A program made the translations under genes and the position numbers. DNA of 64,000 nt from positions 1 to 64,000 of the forward strand of contig NZ_SMCQ01000008.1 in assembly GCF_004343035.1 (NCBI RefSeq), written 5' to 3'. The notes beneath the pieces were generated by a model. It worked only from the letters and a program-made list of their open reading frames with translations. It was not told the origin of the DNA and ran no database searches. This DNA comes from Longibaculum muris. Lineage in GTDB: Bacteria > Bacillota_I > Bacilli_A > Erysipelotrichales > Coprobacillaceae. Positions 21,849 through 64,000 of this stretch are shown here, piece after piece; positions within the stretch are counted from its first letter, which is position 1, and every line of letters starts with the position of its first letter.

Positions 21849-23150
21849 TTGTCACATAAAAGAATATGTATGTCTCTTTTATCTTTATGTTTAATCGCAA
21901 CACTTACTTATCAGCCTATTCATGCTGAGGATTTTGCTGGTCAAGAAAGTCACTATATTAAGCTTTGTTCTTCATCTAAATTAACAAGTAAGCAACAAAA
22001 AACTTGTAAACAGTTTAATACATACTTAAATGATAAAAATAAAAAACTTGCCAAAGAAGCTAAAGATACAAAAAAAGATGTTCAAGAAACAAAAAAATCA
22101 ATCGATGACATTGCTCAAGAAATTTCAAAGATTGATACAAAAATACAATCAGCGAAAAGTGAACTGAATTATGTTCAAAAAAATATAACTGCTTTACAAA
22201 AGAAAGTTACAAATCAAAATCAACAATTACAAGAACGTTTGTATACAATGCAAACAACTATGAATTCTAATTTATTTGTAACGTATATCTTTGGAGCAGA
22301 AAGCTTTACTGATTTTATTAGTCGTGTTGTTAATTTTAAAGAAATTACAAGTTACGAACATGATTTAGTTAAACAACTAAATGAAAATCTTGATGAAATC
22401 AAAAAACAAGAATCAACATTAAAACAATTAAAGAATTCTTTAGAAACCGATAAAACCAAACAAGCAAGTTTACAAAAAACATTCCAAGCTAAACTACTTG
22501 AACAAAACAAAACAATTGCAAGTAATTCATCTCAGGTTTCTAAAAACCAAGAATCAATGGAAAAGATTCAAGCTAATTTAGCTGCTTTACAAAAAGCTGC
22601 TAATGAATCAAAGGTTTCTAATGTAACTCATGCCACACCTAATAAGAAACCTAGCAAACCATCTACCAAACCTGATACAAATCAACAAAAACCTGATACT
22701 ACCCCTCAAGGAACTCCTTCTAACGACGATTTAACGTCAAATGAAGAACTAGGACTAAAGATAGCTAACAAAGCATTAAGTCGCTTAGGCTACATGTATG
22801 TGTGGGCTGGAGGTCACTCTATGAGTAGTATTACCAATCCAAACTGGACACAATTTGATTGTTCTGGTCTTGTCAATTGGGCACATTATCAAGCGGGTGT
22901 TAATATTGGTGTTCAATATACTGGTTCACTTGTTGGCTTAGGAAAGAGTGTTTCTAGAAATAATTTACAAGCGGGAGATATTATTCTCTTTAGTAGTAAT
23001 GGTACTTCTGGTGGTGTTCATCATGTTGGTATTTATATTGGAAATAATCAAATGGTTCATGCTCCAACAACTGGTTCACCAATTTCAGTTGCTAATCTAA
23101 GCTATAACTATTGGCAAAAAGAATGGTATACTTGCCGAAGATTATATTAA
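21849..23150 (+). CDS. Secreted NlpC/P60 peptidoglycan hydrolase with coiled-coil domain
   Basis: 433 residues. Signal peptide 1-26 (cleavage after PIHA), long coiled coil (about 60-255) like PcsB/CwlO N-domains, a Pro/Thr/Lys-rich linker (260-295), and a C-terminal NlpC/P60 domain. Catalytic Cys338 lies in FDCSGLVNWA, His391/His392 in VHHVGIYIG, and His404 in MVHAP. Such enzymes cut stem peptides in the cell wall, and the coiled coil is the part that FtsEX-type regulators hold inactive in PcsB/CwlO (family knowledge). The start is TTG, supported by GGAGG 8 nt upstream. Confidence 0.92.
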   Translation: MSHKRICMSLLSLCLIATLTYQPIHAEDFAGQESHYIKLCSSSKLTSKQQKTCKQFNTYLNDKNKKLAKEAKDTKKDVQETKKSIDDIAQEISKIDTKIQSAKSELNYVQKNITALQKKVTNQNQQLQERLYTMQTTMNSNLFVTYIFGAESFTDFISRVVNFKEITSYEHDLVKQLNENLDEIKKQESTLKQLKNSLETDKTKQASLQKTFQAKLLEQNKTIASNSSQVSKNQESMEKIQANLAALQKAANESKVSNVTHATPNKKPSKPSTKPDTNQQKPDTTPQGTPSNDDLTSNEELGLKIANKALSRLGYMYVWAGGHSMSSITNPNWTQFDCSGLVNWAHYQAGVNIGVQYTGSLVGLGKSVSRNNLQAGDIILFSSNGTSGGVHHVGIYIGNNQMVHAPTTGSPISVANLSYNYWQKEWYTCRRLY

Positions 23151-23181
23151 AAGAAGTTTCAAATCGAAACTTCTTTTTTTT
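23151..23181. terminator. Terminator between converging genes
   Basis: AAGAAGTTTC / GAAACTTCTT, 10-bp stem, T-run on the plus strand and a shorter one on the minus strand. Confidence 0.85.
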
Positions 23182-23182
23182 G

Positions 23183-24439
23183 CTATTTAATAGCTTCTGC
23201 CTGAATGGCATCAAAAGCATCTAATTGTTGTTGAACAGTCTTTCCTGCCAATAATCCATCACATAAATCATCTAGATTAGCCCACTGTTCAAATTTTAAA
23301 TTATAATCTTGAAGCAACATTGTATTTCCTTTTGAAATCACATCCTGTAAATCACTCATTTCTTTATCCAATGTCACATTAATATTATTATATGCTGGTA
23401 ATTTCCCAAAAGTTTCTAATGTCTTTTTTTGAACATCTTTATTAGAAAAATAATCAACAAATTTCTTACATTCTTCTACATGCTGACTCTTAGTAAAAAC
23501 TGACATTCTACGATCAGATGCAATCAATAATACATTTCCTTTCTTCATCGGAATACCCGTGAATTCAAAAGAAAAATCAATTCTATCAGGAGATATCATA
23601 GATGAATAAGTAAAGGCAAAACAACTCTTTTTTTGATTATAGATTTTCACTATATCTTTAGGCTTATATTTTAAAGCTTCTTTAGCATCCAAATATCCTT
23701 TATCTATCAAAGTCTTTAACATCTCAAATCCTGGTCTTGCAAATTCACTAATTTTCATTTCTCCAGAATTTAATTTTTTAATATATTCCTCACTACGATC
23801 ATTAAAATAAATCTGTGATAACCCACCTGCATAAATAATCAACTTCATAAACTTTTGTGTTCCTACAATTGGTTGATATCCTTTTTTCTTAAGAACTTCA
23901 CAACAATGCAAGAACTCACTCCAATTCGTTGGCTTTGTTAACCCACATGTCTTTAACATATCCATATTTACAGTCATACAATATGCAACCAATGCAGCCG
24001 GTACTGAATAAATTTTACCATTAACTGTTGAATCTTTTTTCGCAATATCAATTAATTTATCAGTAAATGGAACATCACTTAAATCTACAAGCTTATCTTG
24101 ATTAACAAAATCAAAAATATTCTTAACATCCATACAAGCAACATCCGTTGCTTCATTGTTCTTTAAACGCTCACCAATCAAATCAGCTAATGTTTTATTC
24201 GTATTTTCAAGTTGTTGATACCCTTCATAAGCAACATCAATAGTCGGATTTTCTTCATGAAATGATTTCATAATTTCCTCAAAATAATCAATAACATCTT
24301 TCTGCAATGAACCTGTTAAAAAATTAATAGAAATAGCATCATTGTTTTGTTTCTTTTGGACAATCTCTGGTTTAGATGATTGACATCCTGCAATCAATAA
24401 AGAACAAGCCATTAACTTTAATAAATTTTTACCTCTCAT
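23183..24439 (-). CDS. Extracellular solute-binding lipoprotein
   Basis: 418 residues with a lipobox LLIAGC (Cys19), then a family 1 solute-binding fold (INFLTGSLQKDVIDYFEEIMKSF; VNGKIYSVPAA; W-rich C-terminus). It looks like the substrate receptor of a carbohydrate ABC transporter, yet no permease or ATPase gene is nearby. It is the last gene of the phosphorelay operon, 5 nt after the hybrid kinase. A role as an extracytoplasmic ligand receptor for that kinase is inferred. Confidence 0.87.
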   Translation of the reverse strand: MRGKNLLKLMACSLLIAGCQSSKPEIVQKKQNNDAISINFLTGSLQKDVIDYFEEIMKSFHEENPTIDVAYEGYQQLENTNKTLADLIGERLKNNEATDVACMDVKNIFDFVNQDKLVDLSDVPFTDKLIDIAKKDSTVNGKIYSVPAALVAYCMTVNMDMLKTCGLTKPTNWSEFLHCCEVLKKKGYQPIVGTQKFMKLIIYAGGLSQIYFNDRSEEYIKKLNSGEMKISEFARPGFEMLKTLIDKGYLDAKEALKYKPKDIVKIYNQKKSCFAFTYSSMISPDRIDFSFEFTGIPMKKGNVLLIASDRRMSVFTKSQHVEECKKFVDYFSNKDVQKKTLETFGKLPAYNNINVTLDKEMSDLQDVISKGNTMLLQDYNLKFEQWANLDDLCDGLLAGKTVQQQLDAFDAIQAEAIK

Positions 24440-24444
24440 CTTTC

Positions 24445-27330
24445 TTACCTCCCTTTTTCTAAAACTTCAATAATTGTCTGTGTTATACTTGTCAAGCTAA
24501 TAGGTTTTGCAATATGTCCATTCATTCCAACATCTAAACATCTTTGAACATCATCACTAAAAGCATTTGCACTCATTGCAATAATTGGTATACGTAAAGC
24601 ATCATCTCTTTCTAATAGACGAATTGCTTGTGTTGCCTCATAGCCATTCATAATTGGCATCTGAATATCCATTAAAATAACCTGATATTCATCTAATTGA
24701 GAACCTTTAAAGATTTCAACCGCTTCTTTTCCATTACGAGCACATACAACAGTAACACCTTTCATTTCTAATAATTCCTTAGCAATCTCCAAATTCAATT
24801 CATTATCTTCAACTAATAAAATCTTTTGATTACTTAAAGATGAATCATTATAACTTTCTTCATGAGTTTCATTCTTCAAAGAAACTAAGGCATGGTACAA
24901 CCTTGATTTAAACAATGGTTTCTCAATAAAATCATTAACTCCAACAGCATAAGCTTCTTCCTCAATTTCACTAAAATCATAAGCAGAAATAAAGACTATT
25001 GGAATCTCTCTACCAATTTTTTCTCTAATCATCTGGGTTAAATGAACACCATCAATATCCGGTAATTTCCAATCAATAATAACAACATCATAATCATTTT
25101 GTTGTTTAAAACCATCCTCAATCTGATGAAAAGCTTCTAAGCCTGTTAAAGCAGTATCAACATGAATCATAAATTCTTCTAAAATAGCACCAACATCCTG
25201 TAAAACCATAGGATCATCATCAACCAAGAAAACTCGCATATCTTTAAGCTTATCCTTATCTTTATAATCATCCTGTTCGCCCTCTTTAAAAGATAACTGA
25301 ATACGAACCATCGTTCCTTTCTTTAACTGACTCTTAATATCCATTGTTCCACCCATAATTGAAACAATATTCTTCACAATAGACAAACCTAATCCCGTTC
25401 CATTTTCTTGACCATAGAATTGATTTTTCTCTTGTTCAAAAGGCTGTCCAATGCGGTCTAAAAACTCTTGACTCATCCCAATTCCATTATCCTTAATTAA
25501 AAACTCAAAATTAACAAGTTTTTTATTAACAGATTTTATTTCATGAATAACCAATTGAATACGACCACCCACTGGTGTATATTTCACTGCATTATTCAAT
25601 AAATTAATAAGTATCTGTTTAAGCTTCATCATATCTCCATAAAGAATATCATGAACAACTTCTTCACTTAAAATCTGTAATTGTTGATTTTTAGACTTAG
25701 CTTGCATATCAATAATTCCAAAAACATCACTAATACAATCTGATAAAACAAACTTTTCCTCATACAATGCCATCTTTCCACTTTCAATCTTTGATAAATC
25801 TAAGATATCATTAATTAAACTTAACAAATGTGAAGATGACTGTGATATTTTTTTCAAATAATCTTTTAATCTTTCTGGATTATCCAAATAATGGCTAGCA
25901 ATTTCACTCATTCCCATAATTGCATTCATTGGTGTTCTAATTTCATGACTCATCTTTGATAAGAAATCAGATTTTGCTTGATTTGCTTGTTTTGCATCCA
26001 AAGCAGCCATCTTTAATGAATCTTGAATCAAAACATCATTCGTAATATTCGCAATAAAGAATATATATTTTTCTTTACCCACCACATTAATATTCTTAAT
26101 AATCAAACGAAGATATTGTTTTTCTTGTGTTAATGGATGCACCCTTTGTGCTTCATATGTACATGTTTGATCAATTTCATTATTTTTAATTTGCTCAGAC
26201 AACCCTACAAAAAAGCTATCTAATAAATGCATGAAAATATCTTCATTTTCTACCAAAGTTTCATTTTCTAATCCAAGTATATCTTCACTATTACAAAATG
26301 CTCTTTCTAATTTTTGACTTGTCTTATCATACAAACAAATAAACAAATCACTTGCCTCTGCCGTCGCATCATAAATGGCATTTTCTAACTGTGTCTTTTC
26401 ATAACGACGTTTTTCTTTTTTCATATTCTGATATATCTCATATAATACCAATGCAATTACTAAAGCTAAACTTAGAATCATCAAAACAAAAGCTACAAAC
26501 AACATCCCTAATACTAAATTTGATTCTTGTTGAATAGCACTTACAGGAATCACACCACATAAATACCAGTCACAATCTTCTTGAACAGAACGTAATGATA
26601 AATAAACAGTTTCTCCTTGGACTGATCCTTTCACAACAACTGATTCATTACTTTCAATAGAATTATAAATATTTTCTTTAATTTCTTTTTCATTAAATCC
26701 AACTTCTTTTAATAATTCATCAGCATCTTGCATATAATTCCAAATCACATTTGGGGTTTTAGAAGTCAAAACAATCTTCTTAGAACCTGAATCAATTAAA
26801 CAAGCAAAACCAGTTTTATTATAAAACGTTAAATCTGTTCCTTGAGAATATTTAGAAAAAGGAATTTCTACATATAACATACCACCATTTTCTACAGGCA
26901 TTTGTAAAACTGTTTCCCAAACCCCATAAGCTCCATTAATCGCTGGTGAAAAAGTGGAATCTTTATTCTTAAAATCTTGATAAGGTAAATCAGCATGTGT
27001 TACCTTATTTCCATGACTGTCAATTCCTTCATTATTCAAGAAATAAATAGCATTTAAATAACCATAATGTTCAACTAAAACATTTAATTGTTGTTGAATT
27101 TGTTGAGTATTTAAATTCTTAAAATTTGAACTATATTTTTTTACAAAAGCTTCATCCTGATCATTATAATTAGCTATCTGATGCGCTATATTATCCAATA
27201 GATTTTGGGTTAAATCAATAGCACTACTATCCATTTTCTCTCTAATATTAATAATCGTAAAACCTAACATTCCAATAATAAAAATAAAAGTAATACTAAT
27301 GGCGATAATTATTTTCTTATTCTTTTTCAT
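24445..27330 (-). CDS. Membrane hybrid histidine kinase with two receiver domains
   Basis: 961 residues. TM helix (7-28), a large extracytoplasmic Cache-like sensor (30-270), second TM (273-297), PAS-like segment (about 315-435), HisKA with His462 in KMSHEIRTPMNA, HATPase (N box NLLNNAVKYTP, G boxes DNGIGM and GTGLGL), then two receivers with Asp753 (VIIDWKLPD) and Asp888 (VILMDIQMP). No HPt domain of its own; a separate Hpt gene sits two genes upstream. Its start overlaps the HD-GYP gene by 14 nt. Confidence 0.95.
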   Translation of the reverse strand: MKKNKKIIIAISITFIFIIGMLGFTIINIREKMDSSAIDLTQNLLDNIAHQIANYNDQDEAFVKKYSSNFKNLNTQQIQQQLNVLVEHYGYLNAIYFLNNEGIDSHGNKVTHADLPYQDFKNKDSTFSPAINGAYGVWETVLQMPVENGGMLYVEIPFSKYSQGTDLTFYNKTGFACLIDSGSKKIVLTSKTPNVIWNYMQDADELLKEVGFNEKEIKENIYNSIESNESVVVKGSVQGETVYLSLRSVQEDCDWYLCGVIPVSAIQQESNLVLGMLFVAFVLMILSLALVIALVLYEIYQNMKKEKRRYEKTQLENAIYDATAEASDLFICLYDKTSQKLERAFCNSEDILGLENETLVENEDIFMHLLDSFFVGLSEQIKNNEIDQTCTYEAQRVHPLTQEKQYLRLIIKNINVVGKEKYIFFIANITNDVLIQDSLKMAALDAKQANQAKSDFLSKMSHEIRTPMNAIMGMSEIASHYLDNPERLKDYLKKISQSSSHLLSLINDILDLSKIESGKMALYEEKFVLSDCISDVFGIIDMQAKSKNQQLQILSEEVVHDILYGDMMKLKQILINLLNNAVKYTPVGGRIQLVIHEIKSVNKKLVNFEFLIKDNGIGMSQEFLDRIGQPFEQEKNQFYGQENGTGLGLSIVKNIVSIMGGTMDIKSQLKKGTMVRIQLSFKEGEQDDYKDKDKLKDMRVFLVDDDPMVLQDVGAILEEFMIHVDTALTGLEAFHQIEDGFKQQNDYDVVIIDWKLPDIDGVHLTQMIREKIGREIPIVFISAYDFSEIEEEAYAVGVNDFIEKPLFKSRLYHALVSLKNETHEESYNDSSLSNQKILLVEDNELNLEIAKELLEMKGVTVVCARNGKEAVEIFKGSQLDEYQVILMDIQMPIMNGYEATQAIRLLERDDALRIPIIAMSANAFSDDVQRCLDVGMNGHIAKPISLTSITQTIIEVLEKGR

Positions 27331-28405
27331 TTTTAGTTCCTATATTCTGATAATAGTTTTGATAAAGATCATAAGCAACTTGATTAAAATATTTCAATAA
27401 TAATGGATTAAATACGCCACATTCTCCATCATTAATCATTTTCATAGCTTCTTCATATTGGAAAGCAGGTTTATAAATACGGATACTAATCAAAGCATCA
27501 TAAACATCGGCAATCGAAACAATCTGTGCCCAAATTGAAATTTCATCACCTTTAAGCCCATCAGGATATCCATTTCCATCATAACGCTCATGATGATGTC
27601 GACAGATATCATAACAATATTCATAAAGATCACTCTTTTTTAATTGTTCAATATTTTCTAATAATTCACATCCTCGAATCGTGTGGGTTTTCATAATTTC
27701 AAATTCTTCCTTTGTTAAACGTCCTGGTTTATTAAGAATTTGATCTGAAATAGCAATTTTTCCGACATCATGCATAACTGCTGCATCACCAATTAATTCA
27801 ATTTGTCTAGGCGTAAATTGATATTCATTGTTTCTCACAAGTTCATTTAATAAGGCTCGCGTAATCTTACGAATACGATTAACATGATCACCGGATTCAC
27901 AATCTCTAAATTCAATTGCGGTGGATAGAGTATCAATGATGGAACGTGTTGCATCATAAAGTTCACGTTCTTGGTATTGAATACGTTGAATCTGTTGATT
28001 AACAATTTGTTGTAAAGAATATCTATGTTTATATAGTTCTATAATATTTTCTATGCGACGTTTAATAAAAGAAATCGCAAATGGTTTTGTAATGACATCA
28101 ACGGCCCCTAAATCAAAACCTTTTTGTAAATAGCTTGGATCTGTTTCTGAAGTAATTAAAAAGACAGGTATGTATTTCATCAATTGACGTTTATTCATTT
28201 CCTTCATCACTTCAAAACCATCCATTTCTGGCATTACAATATCTAATAAAACAGCTAACAACCTATCTTTATATGCTTCAATAATTTCTATAGCTTCCAC
28301 GCCATTAGACGCTTCTTTAATTTCATATTTATCTTCAAAAGAGTTACAAAGAATATCACGATTTAATTCTATATCATCAACAACTAAAATGATATTCTTA
28401 TTCAT
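27317..28405 (-). CDS. Response regulator with HD-GYP output domain
   Basis: 362 residues. Receiver with Asp55 (LLDIVMPEMDG) and TKPF, short helical linker, then HD-GYP: HD pair His212/Asp213 in HDVGKIAIS, GRLT, and GNGYPDGLKGDE (about 277-288). HD-GYP proteins with the GYP triad usually hydrolyse c-di-GMP (established for several); activity here is predicted. Output is thus a second-messenger change and not direct DNA binding. It overlaps the Hpt gene (ATGA) upstream and the kinase downstream. Confidence 0.94.
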   Translation of the reverse strand: MNKNIILVVDDIELNRDILCNSFEDKYEIKEASNGVEAIEIIEAYKDRLLAVLLDIVMPEMDGFEVMKEMNKRQLMKYIPVFLITSETDPSYLQKGFDLGAVDVITKPFAISFIKRRIENIIELYKHRYSLQQIVNQQIQRIQYQERELYDATRSIIDTLSTAIEFRDCESGDHVNRIRKITRALLNELVRNNEYQFTPRQIELIGDAAVMHDVGKIAISDQILNKPGRLTKEEFEIMKTHTIRGCELLENIEQLKKSDLYEYCYDICRHHHERYDGNGYPDGLKGDEISIWAQIVSIADVYDALISIRIYKPAFQYEEAMKMINDGECGVFNPLLLKYFNQVAYDLYQNYYQNIGTKNEKE

Positions 28406-28761
28406 TGTGATCCCTCATCAAAAATTGTCTTTAGACCATTATAAATAAAATCATATTCTTTGAGACATTGTTGATAAAATTCATCTGTTGTAGCATGATT
28501 TTCTTTACGTAAATCATCAACCCAATTCTTTGTGATACAAAATAAAGATTTCATTGCTAAATTACCAGAAACTCCTTTAAGCGTGTGAACAGATTTTAAT
28601 AATAAATCGTAATCCTGGTTTAAATAAGCTTGTTTAATTGTATTTATTGTTTCATCATTTAAAAATTTTTTTAATAATTTTAAAGCCAACTGTTCATGAT
28701 TGGCTAATCTCGACAATAAATCATCATAATCTATTCCTATTTTTAACATTTCCTCTCGCAT
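28402..28761 (-). CDS. Stand-alone histidine phosphotransfer (Hpt) protein
   Basis: 119 residues, all-helical Hpt domain with phospho-accepting His59 in VHTLKGVSGN. It shuttles phosphate between receivers in a multistep relay. Here it can connect the receivers of the hybrid kinase with the REC-HD-GYP protein encoded next door. First gene of the operon, with AAAGGTGGG before the ATG. A second ATG 12 nt downstream is possible. Confidence 0.9.
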   Translation of the reverse strand: MREEMLKIGIDYDDLLSRLANHEQLALKLLKKFLNDETINTIKQAYLNQDYDLLLKSVHTLKGVSGNLAMKSLFCITKNWVDDLRKENHATTDEFYQQCLKEYDFIYNGLKTIFDEGSQ

Positions 28762-28886: not shown

Positions 28887-29360
28887 ATGAAATTATTATT
28901 TAAACAAAGACTATTTTCATGGTTTGATAGCTATGATATTTATGATGAAAACAATCTACCAGTTTATCATGTACAAGGAAAATTAAGTTGGGGACATTGT
29001 TTACAGATTTATGATCAAACACAAAATCACATTGGTACAATTAAGGAAGAAGTGCTTACTTTTCTACCTAAATTTAATATGTATTTAGGGGAACAATATA
29101 TTGGTAAAATCTATAAAGAATTTTCTTTTTTTAAACCCGTCTTTCATCTTGATTGTAATGACTGGAAAATTCAAGGGGATTGGTTGGAATGGGATTATCA
29201 AATCGTTACATCTCAAGGTCAACTTATTGCGACTGTATCTAAAGAAGTTTTCCATTTAACGGATACTTATGTTTTAGATATTATTCTTCCTCAAAACGCT
29301 ATTTATGTTTTAATGATTGTTTTGGCTATTGATGCAGAAAAATGCTCAAGACAAAACTAA
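28887..29360 (+). CDS. LURP-one-related / tubby-like barrel protein
   Basis: 157 residues, beta-rich. The order KQRLFSWFDSYDIYDENN ... VYHVQGKLSWGHCLQIYD ... GTIKEE ... WLEWDYQI is that of the LURP-one-related/YxjI family, which shares the tubby/scramblase fold. The C-terminus has a hydrophobic segment (YVLMIVLAIDAEKCSR) that fits the central helix of that fold, so it need not be a membrane anchor. Function in bacteria is unknown. Monocistronic. Confidence 0.8.
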   Translation: MKLLFKQRLFSWFDSYDIYDENNLPVYHVQGKLSWGHCLQIYDQTQNHIGTIKEEVLTFLPKFNMYLGEQYIGKIYKEFSFFKPVFHLDCNDWKIQGDWLEWDYQIVTSQGQLIATVSKEVFHLTDTYVLDIILPQNAIYVLMIVLAIDAEKCSRQN

Positions 29361-54289: not shown

Positions 54290-57200
54290 TTATTCATTTT
54301 CTTTTCTTTTTTTATAGACTACAACACCTACGACGAAAGCCATTAATGCTGTTAAAGCAAATCCAGCTAATAAGCTTTGATCTTCTGTTTTTACAACTGT
54401 TGTTTGTTGATTATCAACAATTGGTTTCTTATCATTATTATTTGGAGTTTGGTTATCATTGTTATTAGGTGTTTGATTATCATTGCTATCTGGTACTTGA
54501 TTGTCATCAGAATCTTCTTTATGATCAAGATCATTGATGAAATTAATTGATGCAATATTTAATTCATCTCTATCTGATAATCCTTTAGCAAAAATTTCAC
54601 CCATTCTTGTTGAATCAACAATTTTACCATTTTCAACAATGACCAAACCACCTTTCCAAGCTGGATCACTAGCTAATTGTTCTTTACCATATTGAATAGC
54701 TTTAGCAACCCAAGATGCAAATTGTGGATTATTCAAATATGGTGTATGTCCACCAATATTATAACGAATATCATTTTCTTCAATATATTTTGCAGACTTT
54801 AAAGCACCATTTAACCAACTATCAATCTTTGACATCATGACAGTTCCACCACCTAAATGCACTTGTGCTCCCAATGTATCACCACTATAAAGAACTTTAT
54901 TTGTTAAATCAGCCAATTGCCCTCCTCCTGGTGTATGTTCATCAGGAATTTCAATAAATTGGAAAGTATTATCCGCAACAATTATTGTTTGCATATCTTT
55001 GATTGTTGTATAATCAAATAACTCTACTAAATCAACTCCATTTAATTTTGTATGTGGCTCATTTTCTGGCCAAACAAGTGTTGTTATTTCTTTTAACCTT
55101 TCATCCTTAGCAATCTGAGCTAAATTGTTCACATGATCACCATGATTATGTGTTAAGAAAATCTTTAATGATTCACATTTATCACCAATCACACTCTTAA
55201 TCACTTGATTAATCACATTTTCACCATAGAAATCAACATCAATCATAAATGCTTCTTTTCCATCGCTACTTACATAGATAATTGGATTCTCCAAATCAGT
55301 ACCATTTAACATGTACCATTTTCCTTTACCAGCATTCTCCATTTCAATCACAAAGAAGTTTCCATATTGTTTTGTAATTGGACTTTCACGTTCTGCTCTA
55401 TCTGCATCAATAGCCTTTTGATCAAATCCCATGACTAATGATGTAATAGAATCATCAGCCCCTAAATCATATCCCCACCATCCATGAGAATCAATATGGA
55501 ATTTCAATGATACATTTCCTTCTTGACTTGTTGCAATAACATCTGTTCCACCACGAGTCGTTTCTTGATTAAATACTTTTGAATCATAAACAGAATCCAT
55601 ATCATATTTTAAATTTGTTTTTGGATCCATATCATTAATTTGATCTAATAATCCTAATAACTCATCAATATATACTTTATCAAGTTTATTCTTTTGACTA
55701 TCAATCACACTATATCCAGGATTAGCATCTAATAATTGTTTCACTTGTTTTACATTTGTATAGAAGTTAAGCATATTATAATAACTCATACCTGCTTCTG
55801 ATTTTCCATTTAGATATTCTGAATTTAAATAAACATCTTTTAATTGAATATCAACTGTTAATGCTTTTTCTTTACTATCTTTAGTTGCCATTAAATCCTT
55901 TGTATTTAAATGAGCTTTTAATAATTCAGAGACTTTTTGGTTTGTTTTTGTTCCATCTTTTTCATATCTAGGAATAATAACTTCATTAATAGCTTTATCA
56001 TAACTTGCTGTTAATTGAACACTATCATCTTTTGTTTGTTTATAAACCCAATCAATAGCATCTTTATTTAAACACATTAATCCTGTTGCACCATGATAAT
56101 AAGTAGATCCTACTGTTTTAAAATCATCATCAGAATATTTGGTTTGTTTTACTTTTTTATTAATATCTAATTGACTATATCCTTTATCTTTATACATTTT
56201 AACAAGTACATCATAAGGAATTGTCACTTCTGTATAAGGACCAGTAAAATCATTTTCACCTCTATGGAACCAAATAGAAATATCATTATCAACATATGTT
56301 TGACAGTATTCCACCATTGTTTTGTACGCTTCTTTATCTTCACTTGATTTATCACCAGATACAATTGATGTATTACATGGTAGATAAGCAGTAAATAGTT
56401 GAGGTGCTTGATAAACAGCTGATGACATAAATACTCCACCTTGTGAGTTACCTACTGCATAAACTCTATTTGTATCAACTGCATAATGATCAATAAAATA
56501 TTGAACAGTTTGATCAATGTCTTTGCCAGGATTATATTTATTTGGTTGGTTTTCACCTAAACATTGAATCGTCACCATAATCGTATCTTCAGGTGCGTTA
56601 GTAGAAAACGTTTTTGGTGTTAAATCAATATCTAATTCCACCCCAAAATTATCTTTTCCATATAATCTCTCGTCAGGTGTATTTGTTCGATATTGTTGTC
56701 CTCCTCCTGTACAATGAACAACCATAGGATATTTTTTATTTTTCGAATAATTTTCTGGTAAATAATATTTTACATAAATTTTATTATCTGATGTTTGACT
56801 ATCTAATTTCAAATCTTTAAACTCATCAGAAGCAATATTACGAATGTTATCCTGATTAAAAGTTTTTTCTGTATCCTTTGAACTCAAGATATTACCATTT
56901 GTAGCAACAATATCTACCATTTGTTTCACTTTAAACTCACTAACATATCTTCTAAAATTTCCACCTGGAGCCGTTAAGACTCCTGCAGCAGAATGTGTAT
57001 CAACATCTAAAACGATTTTATTACCATTCACGTCGATATCTTCAACTTCTATTTTTTCATTTGGATATAAGATATCTTGTATAACAAAGTCCTCTTTCTT
57101 CAAATTTTTACCATTAACATCTTCGTCATACTCTAAAGTAATTGAAGATAATGCTCTTTGTGGATAAGTTCCAAAACCTGGAATTTCTCCACACCAACTT

Positions 57201-57331
57201 ACATCACTTACTGCGCTAATTTTAATGTTTGATGTCTCGATAGCATGAACACTGTTCATAGGTATGTAAGACAATGTTAGTGCAGTTGCAACAAAAGCTT
57301 TTGCGATTGTTTTAACAAAATCTTTTTTCAT
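54290..57331 (-). CDS. Surface protein fusing an alpha/beta-hydrolase esterase to a metallo-beta-lactamase domain
   Basis: 1013 residues. Signal peptide 1-30; an Ig-like/N-domain (about 38-140); alpha/beta-hydrolase (about 180-435) with probable triad Ser296 (GNSQGG), Asp361 (ENDFTG) and His413 (YYHGA); helical linker (440-590); MBL domain (about 650-905) with ligands His728, His730, Asp732, His733 (HNHGDH), His799, Asp818 and His862 (GGHTPY); Asn/Pro repeat DNQTPNNN; TM helix 985-1006; basic tail KKRKENE. So both catalytic domains face outside. Substrate unknown: esterase plus MBL hydrolase suggests two-step cleavage of an ester or acylated polymer. No LPXTG. Cre site upstream. Confidence 0.88.
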   Translation of the reverse strand: MKKDFVKTIAKAFVATALTLSYIPMNSVHAIETSNIKISAVSDVSWCGEIPGFGTYPQRALSSITLEYDEDVNGKNLKKEDFVIQDILYPNEKIEVEDIDVNGNKIVLDVDTHSAAGVLTAPGGNFRRYVSEFKVKQMVDIVATNGNILSSKDTEKTFNQDNIRNIASDEFKDLKLDSQTSDNKIYVKYYLPENYSKNKKYPMVVHCTGGGQQYRTNTPDERLYGKDNFGVELDIDLTPKTFSTNAPEDTIMVTIQCLGENQPNKYNPGKDIDQTVQYFIDHYAVDTNRVYAVGNSQGGVFMSSAVYQAPQLFTAYLPCNTSIVSGDKSSEDKEAYKTMVEYCQTYVDNDISIWFHRGENDFTGPYTEVTIPYDVLVKMYKDKGYSQLDINKKVKQTKYSDDDFKTVGSTYYHGATGLMCLNKDAIDWVYKQTKDDSVQLTASYDKAINEVIIPRYEKDGTKTNQKVSELLKAHLNTKDLMATKDSKEKALTVDIQLKDVYLNSEYLNGKSEAGMSYYNMLNFYTNVKQVKQLLDANPGYSVIDSQKNKLDKVYIDELLGLLDQINDMDPKTNLKYDMDSVYDSKVFNQETTRGGTDVIATSQEGNVSLKFHIDSHGWWGYDLGADDSITSLVMGFDQKAIDADRAERESPITKQYGNFFVIEMENAGKGKWYMLNGTDLENPIIYVSSDGKEAFMIDVDFYGENVINQVIKSVIGDKCESLKIFLTHNHGDHVNNLAQIAKDERLKEITTLVWPENEPHTKLNGVDLVELFDYTTIKDMQTIIVADNTFQFIEIPDEHTPGGGQLADLTNKVLYSGDTLGAQVHLGGGTVMMSKIDSWLNGALKSAKYIEENDIRYNIGGHTPYLNNPQFASWVAKAIQYGKEQLASDPAWKGGLVIVENGKIVDSTRMGEIFAKGLSDRDELNIASINFINDLDHKEDSDDNQVPDSNDNQTPNNNDNQTPNNNDKKPIVDNQQTTVVKTEDQSLLAGFALTALMAFVVGVVVYKKRKENE

Positions 57332-59141: not shown

Positions 59142-62100
59142 TTATTTCACTTGATTTTTCTTTTTCTTGTTGATAAGTAATGCCATAGCACACATTGATA
59201 TACCTAATAATCCTATATACATTTGATATTGTGTATTGTCTGATGTTTCTACTTTTTCTTCTGTTGTTGGTTGATTGTTGTTTTGTTCAGGTTCTCCAGG
59301 TTTATTTTCATCTGGTTTGTTTTCGTCTGGTTTATCTGGTGTTACAACAATATCCACTTCTTTTTCTTCTAATTTTTCTACTGCTTCTTGTAATTTCTTT
59401 ACAATTGCATCTACTGTTTCTTGTGTTGCAGTTTCATCTTTATAGATTTCTTCTGCTTCTTTTAATACTGCAGTCAATACTTCTACTGTTTCATCTGTAT
59501 ATAATTTTGTATCAATCGCTTTTGCTTCTTGAATAGCTTTTTCTAAAGCTTTCTTATCAGCTTTCTTGACTAATGCTTTGATGGCTGCATTTAAGTCTTC
59601 TACAGCTTTATCAACTTGTTTTTGTGTTGCATTTTCATCTACATAGATTGCTTTTACATCTTCTAATACTTTTTCTAATTCCTTAACTGTATCTTGGATG
59701 TATAATTCTTTATCTACTTCTTGTGCTTTATTGATAGCTTCTTCTAAAGCTTTCTTATCAGCTTTCTTAACTAATGCTTTGATAGCTGCATTTAAGTCTT
59801 CTACAGCTTTATCAACTTGTTTTTGTGTTGCAGTTTCATCTTCATAGATTGCTTTTACATCTTCTAATACTTTTTCTAATTCTTTTACTGTATCTTGGAT
59901 GTATAATTCTTTATCTACTTCTTGTGCTTTATTGATAGCTTCTTCTAAAGCTTTCTTGTCTGCTTTTTTAACTAAACTTTCAATTGCATTTTTCAATTGT
60001 TTCTTAGCATCAAGAATTTCTTCTGGAGTTGCTTTTTTATTTTTATAAACTGCAATTACATTTTCTAATGCTTCTTGATATTTAGAAACACTTGCTGATG
60101 TATAAAGACTTGTATCGATATTTTTATTTTCATCATAGTATGCTTTTAAGTCACCTTTTAAAGACACACCATAAACTTCGAATTCCCATAAAGAATATCC
60201 AAATTCTCCTACTGGTTGAATTCCTAACATTCTTACATATCTACCAATAGTGTCAGCTTCATACTTAAATTCTTTAATACCTGCTGATCCATTTGTTACA
60301 TGTGTGATATCAGTCCAGTTTTCCCCATCATTAGAAACTTGAAGCTTATATTCCTTACCACATGCTCCTTCCCAATTTAACACAATCTTTGAAATATAGT
60401 AATTATCTTGTAAATCAACATAAATCCACTCGTCATTTGATTTACGATTAGATACCCATCTTGATTGTTGATCATTAATTTTATCAGTATTTCCATCAAA
60501 GGCTAATGATGAATAATATTGTTTATTTCCATCTTTTGGATCAATAAATTCAGAGCTTGCTTTTGAAGGTTTGTTTAAAGCAATATTTGTTGTATTAGGT
60601 TTTTCTGTTAATTCACCATAGACTTCAAATTCCCATAAAGAATATCCATACTTAGCGCCAACTTTAACACCTTGCATCTTAACATATCTTCCAGTGATTA
60701 ATTCATCTAGCTTAATTTCTTGAATACCTATTCCATCTGTTCGATGGATAACTTCTTGCCATGTTTCTTGATCATCAGAAACAAGAATCTTATACTCGTG
60801 TTTACTGTCTCCTTCCCAATTTAAGACAATCTTTGAAATATCATAAGTATCTTCCAAATCCACATAAATCCATTCATCATTTGAATAATCACGATTAGAT
60901 ACCCATCTTGATTGTTTTCCATTAATTGTTGCTGATGATCCATCAAAAGCTAATGATGAATAATATTGTTTACCTCCATCAATATATTCTGAACTTGCTT
61001 TTGAAGGTTTATTTAAAGCAATATTAATTTCTTCTGGTTCTGGTTCACTTTGTTCTCCTACAAGTGCTCCATAAACTTCAAATTCCCATATTGAATATCC
61101 AAATTTATTTACTGGTTCTACTCCCAACATTCTTACATATCTACCAGTAGTTGGTTCTTCATAATTAAATTCAGTAATTCCAGCTTTACCTTCAGTCACA
61201 TGTGTGATATCTGTCCAGTTTTCTCCATCTTCTGATACTTGGAGTTTATATTCTTTAGCATATGCATCTTCCCAGTTCAAGACAATATTACTAATTTCAT
61301 AAGATGCTTGTAAATCAACATAAATCCAATCATCATTATGTTTACGATCTGATGCCCATCTTGATTGGAAACTGTTCGTTTTTTCTACACTTCCATCAAA
61401 GGCATTTTTTGCTGATAGGGAACTGCTATATTCGCTGCGTGCTTTTGCAGGTTTATTTAAAGCAATATTAGATGCTGTACCGTAAACCTTGATTTCAAAG
61501 ATATTAATTCCATAGTTCTTTCCACTAACAATTCTTGATTTAAGTGAATGGACTTTAATATAGCGTCCTGTCACTGCTTCATCAAAATTAATTTCATCAG
61601 TTAGAGTTTGATCAGTTTTTAATGAAGATTTGACTGTTTTCCAATTTTTATTATCAGATGAAACTTCAATCTGATAATTATCTGAACATGCAGCTTCCCA
61701 ATTAATGACAACTGCATTCATATTTGATTCTTTTCCTAAATCAATACTAATCCATTCATCATTTGAATCACGTTTTGATGCCCATCTTGTAGAAGTATCA
61801 CCATCTACTGCTAAACTTCCAACAAGTGATGAATCAACATTAGAAATAGAACTTGTCGTAGTTGGTTGATTTAATGAAAGAAGTTTTCCTTCATTAAATG
61901 TTAATTCTTTAATTTGATAATGTTTGTCCTTAGCAGATTTCATGACAATCTTTACATAATGACAAATCTTACCAATATTAATTGTTTCTTCTTTTCCTTT
62001 TCCATCTTTAACAGATGAGATTAATTGATAATCTTCTCCATCTTGAGAAATATAAACATCATACTCAGTTGCATATTGATCACCCCATAAGATGTTCATG

Positions 62101-64000
62101 TCTTTGATATATTGATCTGTACCTGTAAATACAGAAACCCATTCATCTTTGTTTCCTTGACTTTCCCAATATGTTGATGTATTTTCATCTACAACATATT
62201 TAGGTGAGTGTCCTTCTGTGTAGCTGCTTGCTACATATCTTGCATCTTCACCTTCAGATAGAGTGATAGATTGACCCGCATATGGTAATGCGCGTGTTGT
62301 AAATACAGTTGATGTATTTACTTCATCATAAGATAAATCAACATGAACTGTTCTATGAGCAACATAATCATTGGCAGCTACTGTGATTTCTCTTTGTTGT
62401 TTTGATTCATCAATCATTACACTACAAGGTTGATCTACTGTAATTGTATAACCTGGTTTGTATTCCAAAGTACCTGCTTTATAGAAATTGATTTGTGTTT
62501 GTTTCAATCCATCATGACGAACTGCTTGAATTTCTTTAGTATTGCTTACAATTGTCACTGGGATATCATTAGCATATTCACTTACATTTTCAGCTGTTGT
62601 ATTAGGTACAACAATATATGCATAACTTGCATCTACTGGTTTCACACCATGATCTAACCACGCAGTGAAAGTTGCAGGTGTTGATTTCTTTTTATCCTCT
62701 GGCCATAATGATGGGTTATCTGCTTGTAATGCATTACTTACAACAACTTTTTCTTCTTTAGGGAAAACATAACCAACTTTATCATTATATAACCACTTTG
62801 TTGTATATTCTTTTTTCTTTGTTCCTTCTGCCACTTTTTGATTGTTTACAATGACATTATCTGCTTCACTTTGATTTAATGTTGTATTAATCGCAACACT
62901 TTCTTTAGAAGTAATTCCTGCACCTAATGCAACAAATTCATCATCAAAGAAGAAATATCCTTTCGATGCTTGGGTATTTTTCTTATTCATTGCATAAGAA
63001 GTAGCACCGTATTTCCCATTTGTTACACCAATCATATGATCAGTTCCGTTTGTAAAACGTCCTGAGTTTGCATAATCCTTAACAATACGAGCTGCTGTTG
63101 TTGTTCCAGGACAATGTGCCCAATCGTAAGTTGGGAAAACATTTGTATATTCATCACCATCAACTGTAATTGTTGAAGCAGCTGATGATGTCCAGTAAAT
63201 AAGTTGTCCTTCATCTTTTCCAGCTGGCCAACTTCCACGCCATTCTCCACCAATGACACTCTTAGAATCCATCTTGATATTGACACCATAGCCATCTCTC
63301 ATATGAGATGCATAACCAGATCTCCACATGTAATAGTTTCCATCTTTGCCATTTGATGTTGTTTTTCCTTCAATGTTATCTAATACTTTCTGATATTCAT
63401 TGGCTCTTAATGGGTCTGAATCAATCATTCTCTTTAATGGTTCAATATATTCAGCCGCATAATTCTTATATCCAACTTCATATTTATATGGACGATATCC
63501 AAGATATAATTCCATGATATCTCCTCTGATTGTCCAGCTTGTTCCATTGAGCATATAGTTACCCATTCTTGTCACAACTTCTTGATTGATTGCAAACTCT
63601 GTTCCACGTAACATATAAATCCAGAAACTCATATCTCTAAACATAGACATTCCATATCCGTTTGAATAGAATTGACGTCCATGCATATAATAACTGTTAT
63701 CTACTTGTACTGCTTCAGCTGTTACATCATCTTCTTGAGTTAATAAACAATAATCTAAATAGTCAGTAACCATTTCTTTTAACTTTTTAGCATCATTAGT
63801 CAACAATGCATGATATACCCAGTTTTGATCACGCCATAATTCATTTTGACCAGTACCATATTTTACAGGTTCTCTCTCTAAAAGTTTAGTAAGCATTATA
63901 TCTTGTGCTTCTTGACTAATAATTCCATCCATGAATAAAGCAATACGAGAAAAACGTAATTGCACTCCAACTTCATTTTCCCACCAGTTTTTAGAATATG
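59142..64000 (-). CDS. Polysaccharide lyase family 8 surface enzyme with five discoidin and four FIVAR modules (5' partial)
   Basis: At least 1618 residues; the 5' end lies beyond the window, as the frame is open to 64000 with the PL8 hallmark NWWENEVG just before the first possible internal start. PL8 catalytic segment DNSYYMHGRQFYSNGYG provides the probable His/Tyr pair; the lid/beta-sandwich domains follow. Then come five F5/8 type C (discoidin) domains, four with the repeated motif SRW(A/V)S and EFEVYG or similar ends, four helical FIVAR modules, a Pro/Glu-rich spacer with DENKPDENKPGEPEQ, a TM helix and a basic tail KKKKNQVK. It should cut hyaluronan- or chondroitin-like glycans at the cell surface (family inference). 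Confidence 0.9.
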   Translation of the reverse strand, partial: YSKNWWENEVGVQLRFSRIALFMDGIISQEAQDIMLTKLLEREPVKYGTGQNELWRDQNWVYHALLTNDAKKLKEMVTDYLDYCLLTQEDDVTAEAVQVDNSYYMHGRQFYSNGYGMSMFRDMSFWIYMLRGTEFAINQEVVTRMGNYMLNGTSWTIRGDIMELYLGYRPYKYEVGYKNYAAEYIEPLKRMIDSDPLRANEYQKVLDNIEGKTTSNGKDGNYYMWRSGYASHMRDGYGVNIKMDSKSVIGGEWRGSWPAGKDEGQLIYWTSSAASTITVDGDEYTNVFPTYDWAHCPGTTTAARIVKDYANSGRFTNGTDHMIGVTNGKYGATSYAMNKKNTQASKGYFFFDDEFVALGAGITSKESVAINTTLNQSEADNVIVNNQKVAEGTKKKEYTTKWLYNDKVGYVFPKEEKVVVSNALQADNPSLWPEDKKKSTPATFTAWLDHGVKPVDASYAYIVVPNTTAENVSEYANDIPVTIVSNTKEIQAVRHDGLKQTQINFYKAGTLEYKPGYTITVDQPCSVMIDESKQQREITVAANDYVAHRTVHVDLSYDEVNTSTVFTTRALPYAGQSITLSEGEDARYVASSYTEGHSPKYVVDENTSTYWESQGNKDEWVSVFTGTDQYIKDMNILWGDQYATEYDVYISQDGEDYQLISSVKDGKGKEETINIGKICHYVKIVMKSAKDKHYQIKELTFNEGKLLSLNQPTTTSSISNVDSSLVGSLAVDGDTSTRWASKRDSNDEWISIDLGKESNMNAVVINWEAACSDNYQIEVSSDNKNWKTVKSSLKTDQTLTDEINFDEAVTGRYIKVHSLKSRIVSGKNYGINIFEIKVYGTASNIALNKPAKARSEYSSSLSAKNAFDGSVEKTNSFQSRWASDRKHNDDWIYVDLQASYEISNIVLNWEDAYAKEYKLQVSEDGENWTDITHVTEGKAGITEFNYEEPTTGRYVRMLGVEPVNKFGYSIWEFEVYGALVGEQSEPEPEEINIALNKPSKASSEYIDGGKQYYSSLAFDGSSATINGKQSRWVSNRDYSNDEWIYVDLEDTYDISKIVLNWEGDSKHEYKILVSDDQETWQEVIHRTDGIGIQEIKLDELITGRYVKMQGVKVGAKYGYSLWEFEVYGELTEKPNTTNIALNKPSKASSEFIDPKDGNKQYYSSLAFDGNTDKINDQQSRWVSNRKSNDEWIYVDLQDNYYISKIVLNWEGACGKEYKLQVSNDGENWTDITHVTNGSAGIKEFKYEADTIGRYVRMLGIQPVGEFGYSLWEFEVYGVSLKGDLKAYYDENKNIDTSLYTSASVSKYQEALENVIAVYKNKKATPEEILDAKKQLKNAIESLVKKADKKALEEAINKAQEVDKELYIQDTVKELEKVLEDVKAIYEDETATQKQVDKAVEDLNAAIKALVKKADKKALEEAINKAQEVDKELYIQDTVKELEKVLEDVKAIYVDENATQKQVDKAVEDLNAAIKALVKKADKKALEKAIQEAKAIDTKLYTDETVEVLTAVLKEAEEIYKDETATQETVDAIVKKLQEAVEKLEEKEVDIVVTPDKPDENKPDENKPGEPEQNNNQPTTEEKVETSDNTQYQMYIGLLGISMCAMALLINKKKKNQVK
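59540..59975 (-). repeat. Near-identical tandem FIVAR-coding repeats
   Basis: Two 201-bp units (67 codons starting KKADKKALEEAINKAQEVDK) lie head to tail near 59768-59968 and 59567-59767 with only a few base differences, followed by a diverged third unit. The near identity at DNA level indicates recent duplication or gene conversion, and repeat-number variation is likely. Confidence 0.8.

Follow-up and report, generated by a model that had tools for sequence, protein, structure and literature searches.

LuxP-LuxQ and TorT-TorS are hybrid kinases driven by binding proteins, with transcriptional cascades as their outputs. More generally, solute-binding proteins (SBPs) activate kinases, chemoreceptors and enzymes of cyclic di-GMP (c-di-GMP), and the sbp gene is genome-associated for 10 of 11 characterised SBP-activated kinases (PMC11113362). 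The present work concerns a four-gene unit in the first 64 kb (64,000 nucleotides, the window) of contig C8 (NZ_SMCQ01000008.1) of Longibaculum muris, from a genome of 3.17 Mb in 56 contigs. The unit encodes a lone Hpt protein, a response regulator of the REC-HD-GYP type, a hybrid histidine kinase and a solute-binding lipoprotein. Judging by sequence, it is quite likely a co-sensor phosphorelay, in which the lipoprotein would be the antenna of a kinase that signals via Hpt to REC-HD-GYP.

CuaD-CuaS and NspS-MbaA are each a precedent for one half of this arrangement.

NspS-MbaA is known from Vibrio cholerae, with homologues in Sinorhizobium. The periplasmic SBP binds the ectodomain of the membrane receptor and sets c-di-GMP turnover, and the NspS and MbaA genes overlap (PMC8967002). 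MbaA itself has GGDEF-EAL, whereas the window receptor lacks these domains (HisKA-HATPase-REC-REC) and would work via Hpt and a separate REC-HD-GYP. Also, NspS is a polyamine SBP, while the window SBP is a sugar-type lipoprotein. Closer analogues of NspS-MbaA are the GGDEF-EAL relatives of the window unit described below (loci L054-L057, L052 and L099).

The nearest Gram-positive kinase case is CuaD-CuaS-CuaR from Ruminiclostridium cellulolyticum. Here too the SBP is a lipoprotein whose gene adjoins two-component genes, and it binds the kinase. The CuaS ectodomain has no affinity for the tested sugars, yet binds the SBP loaded with cellobiose (PMC10384115). Set beside this three-component type, the window SBP gene adjoins that of the kinase, outside a transporter operon. 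Unlike the window kinase, CuaS is a classical HAMP kinase paired with a YesN/AraC-type transcriptional regulator, in a system described with no hybrid receivers, Hpt or c-di-GMP enzyme.

Among phosphorelays that lead to a c-di-GMP enzyme and use SBP-type sensing, Hk1-Rrp1 of Borrelia burgdorferi comes nearest; it too is a hybrid-kinase phosphorelay with a c-di-GMP enzyme as regulator (PMC4013479). It differs in having its SBP-like domains inside the kinase, a fused Hpt, and a GGDEF cyclase as output instead of HD-GYP.

In the open literature, a scope that leaves most subscription papers outside, we recognised no binding-protein-driven, separate-Hpt phosphorelay to HD-GYP, nor any system of the kind within this bacterial group. 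Binding proteins that activate receptors are already known. Of more interest here than the single unit is the family, in which a conserved pair of lipoprotein and ectodomain goes with changing c-di-GMP-related outputs. The signals sensed by c-di-GMP enzymes are mostly unknown, and within the periplasmic-binding-protein clan, a review of c-di-GMP sensing names only SBP_bac_3 as studied in c-di-GMP networks (PMC8846402).

The four-gene unit and its proteins

All four genes lie on the minus strand and are transcribed from 28761 to 23183, in the order Hpt (119 aa, 28402..28761), REC-HD-GYP (362 aa, 27317..28405), hybrid kinase (961 aa, 24445..27330) and lipoprotein (418 aa, 23183..24439). By these coordinates, the overlap is 4 nt between Hpt and REC-HD-GYP and 14 nt between REC-HD-GYP and kinase, and a gap of 5 nt separates kinase and lipoprotein. 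The list of open reading frames (ORFs) agrees exactly, overlaps and gap included, with an earlier description of this DNA (the sequence-only reading), which had also proposed the co-sensor interpretation. The genes were assigned from ORFs and Pfam matches, together with motifs (Hpt, kinase), structure matches (REC-HD-GYP), transmembrane (TM) prediction (kinase) and a lipobox (lipoprotein). By domains and motifs, every part of a multi-step phosphorelay is found: a hybrid kinase with receivers, a lone Hpt with its His, and a receiver-bearing output protein.

The kinase has Pfam matches to HisKA, HATPase_c and two Response_reg stretches. Its layout is a TM stretch at 4-31, a dCache-like ectodomain, a TM stretch at 268-303, a linker, HisKA, HATPase, REC1 and REC2. 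The motifs SHEIRTP (461; His462), the N, G1 and G2 boxes, IIDWKLP (751, REC1) and LMDIQMP (886, REC2) are all present; we presume that these, and the receiver and Hpt motifs below, have the functions usually given to them. The Pfam scan finds no Hpt domain in the kinase, which bears out the earlier claim of a kinase with two receivers and a separate Hpt gene. The sensing part had been called 'Cache-like'. This fits the two TM stretches, although the window kinase itself has no match to a Pfam Cache domain; a 13-row profile of related ectodomains does match solved Cache sensors (9hvj at 2.4e-6, PctC 5ltv at 1.1e-5, KinD 4jgo at 3e-5). The TorS and LuxQ families of NCBIfam match the kinase through its core region. 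It is not a member proper of either, with scores of 337.5 for TorS (cut-off 676.5) and 308.4 for LuxQ (cut-off 1200), nor of the BarA family, where the score is far under the cut-off.

The Hpt call is weak by its Pfam score (7.2e-05, 23.4 bits, slightly under the Pfam cut-off of 24.6), and also leans on the HTLKG motif with His59, the position of the gene and conserved homologues.

REC-HD-GYP is a predicted c-di-GMP phosphodiesterase. Pfam finds Response_reg and HD_5 (2.5e-27), and the motifs are LLDIVMP (residues 53-59, with phospho-acceptor Asp55), HD and HHExxDGxGYP. Among solved structures it matches PmGH 4mcw (1.2e-36) and 4r8z (1.5e-33). All 8 metal ligands are identical to those of PmGH (E170, H174, H212, D213, H241, H271, H272, D300), which rules out a degenerate domain. 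The PmGH numbers are those we take to be the ligands, and they fit the 4mcw chain with one constant offset of 6.

The lipoprotein matches SBP_bac_8 (1.2e-20) and SBP_bac_1 (4.7e-20) in Pfam, and sugar SBPs are among the matches of the SBP profile (9xor at 1.5e-33, 2hfb at 4.3e-31, 4rk9 at 3.7e-25). Its lipobox LIAGC, with Cys19, is invariant in the 12-row alignment A4. From the lipobox and the TM stretches flanking the kinase ectodomain, the lipoprotein is predicted to be exported and to sit, anchored, on the side of the membrane where that ectodomain lies. Compared with an ABC importer, no permease or ATPase genes are encoded alongside. Permeases were sought by phmmer, using four seed proteins of the MalF/MalG type taken from two loci, and the counts here and below cover that permease type only; there was no match in the whole window, and the single ABC match in it is an ATPase-type protein at 247-2106. 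This is in line with the sugar-type lipoprotein without transporter genes described earlier.

We infer each arrow of the proposed mechanism from family knowledge, from docking and ligand class to phosphate route and enzyme activity. The membrane-anchored lipoprotein would catch a solute outside the cell; its SBP class makes an oligosaccharide the probable one. Loaded or empty, the lipoprotein would then dock on the dCache-like ectodomain; by likeness to NspS-MbaA (PMC8967002), activity may go with either the bound or the free form. Docking would change autophosphorylation at His462, after which the phosphate would move to an internal receiver, most likely at Asp888 of REC2, then to His59 of the separate Hpt, and then to Asp55 of REC-HD-GYP. 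Phosphorylation there would set the c-di-GMP phosphodiesterase activity, and effectors, c-di-GMP-I riboswitches among them, would read the change. In this form, the unit would make up the 'closed circuit' from ligand to second messenger that had been proposed for it.

The lipoprotein clade and its changing outputs

Relatives were sought in an order-level sample of 315 genomes, with at most 5 SBP and 7 ectodomain candidates scored per genome, and member counts are therefore lower bounds. With SBP profile A3, 38 of the 315 genomes give at least 44 matches at E <= 1e-20. The scores show a sharp gap: at least 13 matches (9 genomes) lie at 287 bits or above, and the next is at 105 bits. Seven of these 13 clade members had not been among the sequences that make up the profile. 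In a class-level sample of 395 genomes, the window's genome is alone in the high score range, with one other genome at 5.2e-32.

All 13 clade SBPs lie at most 16 nt from (or overlap by up to 4 nt with) a gene for a membrane sensor whose ectodomain is a related one. The SBP is upstream of the sensor in 7 and downstream in 6. For L104 the SBP position was taken from the coordinates of the profile match, since the gene overlaps other frames. In none of the 13 does a permease match fall within 5 kb. Together with the lack of a match in the 64-kb window, this rejects the lipoprotein as the transport SBP of a nearby importer. The sequence-only reading had named permeases that co-occur with the lipoprotein in all genomes as the contrary outcome; what accompanies it throughout is a sensor.

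Seven of the 13 sensors are hybrid kinases (window, L098, L100-L104), and those of L054-L057, L052 and L099 are Cache-GGDEF-EAL proteins. In L052, the gene nearest the SBP encodes a 453-aa ectodomain protein without a Pfam match, and the gene for the GGDEF-EAL sensor comes next. Such sensor-only proteins, with two TM stretches, the same ectodomain family and no recognised output, occur at L099 6027-7466 and L052 13532-14893. Standing beside an SBP and a GGDEF-EAL sensor, they are possible parts of heteromeric receptors.

Trees of the SBPs and of the ectodomains recover the same five groups. The placement of L052 and L099 differs between the two trees, and long-branch warnings apply to each. 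Over 13 pairs, the correlation of SBP distances with ectodomain distances is 0.94, and over 8 representatives it is 0.91, in a mirror-tree permutation test that leaves the co-inheritance of neighbouring genes uncontrolled. The sequence-only reading had put forward a co-evolution analysis of this kind as a check.

The kinases of L100 and L102 group with the GGDEF-EAL proteins of L054-L057 in both trees, with support of 100/99 for the SBPs and 97/99 for the ectodomains. This points to recombination within the sensor gene. By the trees, recombination has parted the ectodomain from the output inside a gene, and the SBP and ectodomain have stayed together across a gene boundary. Such apparent joint descent with changing outputs is the strongest evidence for a partnership, and joint inheritance differs from contact.

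We lean slightly towards a wider picture for this bacterial order, in which a lipoprotein and the dCache ectodomain that goes with it have moved as a pair, a transferable 'input head' placed on hybrid kinase to Hpt to HD-GYP relays, on GGDEF-EAL proteins and in a chemosensory operon. They would hence be an extracellular-nutrient receptor family for c-di-GMP in Gram-positive-type bacteria, and horizontal exchange would have carried the four-gene version as one block. Lipoprotein and receptor pairs with different outputs are natural swaps that could show how docking is converted into control of a kinase, a cyclase or a phosphodiesterase. The four-gene unit is small enough for work in a laboratory host.

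The whole unit recurs in genome G217, from another family of the same order. At this locus (L098) the order of the four genes is identical and their overlaps are 8, 14 and 4 nt, with identities to the window of 50% (Hpt), 78% (REC-HD-GYP), 65% (kinase) and 70% (SBP). Synteny thus extends to a second family, and this unit and the 13-member clade rule out that the association is an accident of one genome. An EF-G-like protein from the window has identities of 93% in G032, 70% in G036 (same family) and 47% in G217. All four unit proteins exceed the last figure, Hpt by a narrow margin, which is why the unit was probably exchanged as a block between families. This comparison uses the one EF-G-like marker, which makes it thin evidence. 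Anaerobic ribonucleotide reductase was tried as a second marker and rejected, as the G217 protein, at 31%, is probably not orthologous.

Between the SBP genes of the window and L098, third codon positions match at 0.487 and second positions at 0.883, a difference that indicates purifying selection. The unit's G+C is 0.293 in the window (mean 0.310, sd 0.014), and 0.348 in L098 beside 0.326. With few third positions matching and each copy's G+C fitting its own surroundings, the exchange would be old.

G032 has a divergent version (L060) with Hpt, a REC-HD-GYP-PAS-PAS-GGDEF protein and a kinase-REC, in which the SBP bears a fused 5'-nucleotidase C-terminal domain.

Weighing the co-sensor reading

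The comparative evidence (conservation of the unit, the SBP clade, the matching trees) largely supports the co-sensor interpretation. Several things weigh against it. The exact four-gene unit was found in just 2 of the 315 order-level genomes, and is hence rare. Matching trees are expected for any adjacent, co-inherited gene pair. Gene proximity can mislead, as AgtS and AruS are not activated by SBPs encoded nearby (PMC11113362). Single-sequence structure models have a mean pLDDT of 41.0 for the kinase ectodomain and 37.3 for the SBP, too low for docking surfaces. Physical contact, ligand and enzyme activity are in this reading predictions from sequence alone. And 13 of the 20 fetched ectodomain relatives from outside the clade have no adjoining SBP, from which it follows that the ectodomain fold alone requires none.

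These relatives come from an ectodomain profile run over the same 315 genomes. It ranks the 13 paired sensors first, at 312 bits or above, which is by construction as they are its own rows; the next score is at most 152 bits. An SBP neighbour is present for the other 7 of the 20 (L158, L163, L164, L169, L170, L175 and L177), and the split is uneven: 5 of 5 kinases have one, against 2 of 15 GGDEF-type sensors. In L170, SBP and kinase are again accompanied by a separate Hpt.

The relatives without SBP also speak for the best placed of the rival readings, which is still an unlikely one. Here, the kinase senses its ligand directly by the dCache-like domain, and the lipoprotein buffers, scavenges or serves the wall without contacting the kinase. 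Cache domains of the PctA/B/C type bind ligands directly, and the ectodomain profile matches a Cache structure of the PctC type. The strict adjacency and joint descent of SBP and ectodomain within the clade go against direct sensing, as does L158, where the ectodomain of a hybrid kinase is a related one (6e-35) and a lipoprotein of another Pfam family, Peripla_BP_4, holds the place of the partner. The genome association of 10 of 11 SBP-activated kinases with their sbp gene (PMC11113362) argues in the same direction.

A little further down in probability is a branched system. The kinase-Hpt pair would then chiefly drive other response regulators, with the HD-GYP protein as a minor branch or feedback arm. 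The genome has many other receiver proteins, and the clade kinases of L100-L104 have no separate neighbouring response regulator recognised by the seeds, which makes cross-talk plausible. Against this, Hpt and REC-HD-GYP overlap both in the window (4 nt) and in L098 (8 nt), and the divergent L060 keeps its Hpt next to a REC-HD-GYP-GGDEF protein.

Least probable is that the lipoprotein is an ordinary transport SBP serving a distant permease, its place in the operon coupling expression only: it does belong to a sugar-transport SBP class, and at least one complete sugar ABC locus exists in the genome (L063, contig C40), but that locus carries its own SBP, a permease match within 5 kb occurs for 0 of 13 clade members against 9 of 20 fetched homologues from below the score gap, and the SBP follows the sensor ectodomain through changes in gene order and output.

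Those 20, fetched (along with L060) from the 31 SBP matches below the gap, divide into 9 with a MalF/MalG-type permease match and 11 with a hybrid kinase and no permease. L118, one of the 9, also carries a kinase-like match. The 11 (L106, L109, L112, L113, L114, L116, L117, L119, L120, L122 and L123) show that orphan SBP-kinase pairs occur in a second group too. Its kinases are HisKA-HATPase-REC-REC proteins of about 845-870 aa, with an ectodomain unlike that of the window.

Three SBPs carry a fused 5'-nucleotidase C-terminal domain (PF02872), at L060 8103-9917, L163 1875-3755 and L170 2898-4763. Each adjoins a hybrid kinase or a Cache-GGDEF-EAL sensor. We know of no signalling role for this kind of fusion.

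c-di-GMP and SBPs elsewhere in the genome

The genome has 33 GGDEF matches, of which 32 exceed the cut-off, and three c-di-GMP-I riboswitches. Going by these, it can make and read c-di-GMP. The sequence-only reading would have been at odds with an inactive HD-GYP and a genome without cyclases; the conserved metal ligands and the GGDEF matches suggest otherwise. The HD-GYP region of the window protein aligns to four other places in the genome at E <= 1e-18. No PilZ match was found in the genome. Two of the riboswitches precede GGDEF genes (L190 and L191). The third (G000:C4:92300-92382, or L189 8300-8382, minus strand) has an unusual target, lying roughly 100 nt upstream of a gene like those for tRNA/rRNA uracil-5-methyltransferases.

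There are 7 SBP_bac_8 matches in the genome. Three lie with transporter genes (L063, L066 and L067, judged by ORF order and seed matches), with L063 being a complete sugar ABC locus. Since the other four (in the window, L052, L061 and L062) lie with signalling genes, annotation as transporters would misread much solute sensing.

One of the paralogous SBPs is within a chemosensory operon (L052, contig C23, 3576-16183, minus strand). This operon encodes the SBP, the 453-aa sensor, Cache-GGDEF-EAL, a 121-aa protein, CheR, REC-MCP, CheC, CheD, REC-GGDEF, CheA and a 149-aa protein. The 121-aa and 149-aa proteins may be CheW. As flagellin has no match in the genome, the operon probably acts on c-di-GMP.

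At L061 (contig C3, 6250-10603), an SBP_bac_8 lipoprotein overlaps a 986-aa GGDEF-EAL protein whose N-terminal part is unlike the window ectodomain. This is likely another pair of SBP and c-di-GMP receptor. At L062 (contig C18), an SBP overlaps a receiver protein and a probable kinase.

Back in the window, a consensus promoter scan gave no more sites than shuffled sequence. A terminator-like hairpin at 23149..23177 (12 pairs, with a T run on either side, listed on the + strand, strand itself unassigned) lies between the end of the unit and a convergent NlpC/P60 gene, and is common to both. Divergent from the start of the unit is a LURP-one-related (LOR) protein (28887-29360, plus strand). Further along, on the minus strand, a 1013-aa protein (54290-57331) joins esterase-like and metallo-beta-lactamase-like domains, and a 1607-aa polysaccharide lyase family 8 protein (59142-63965) has F5/8-type C and FIVAR stretches.

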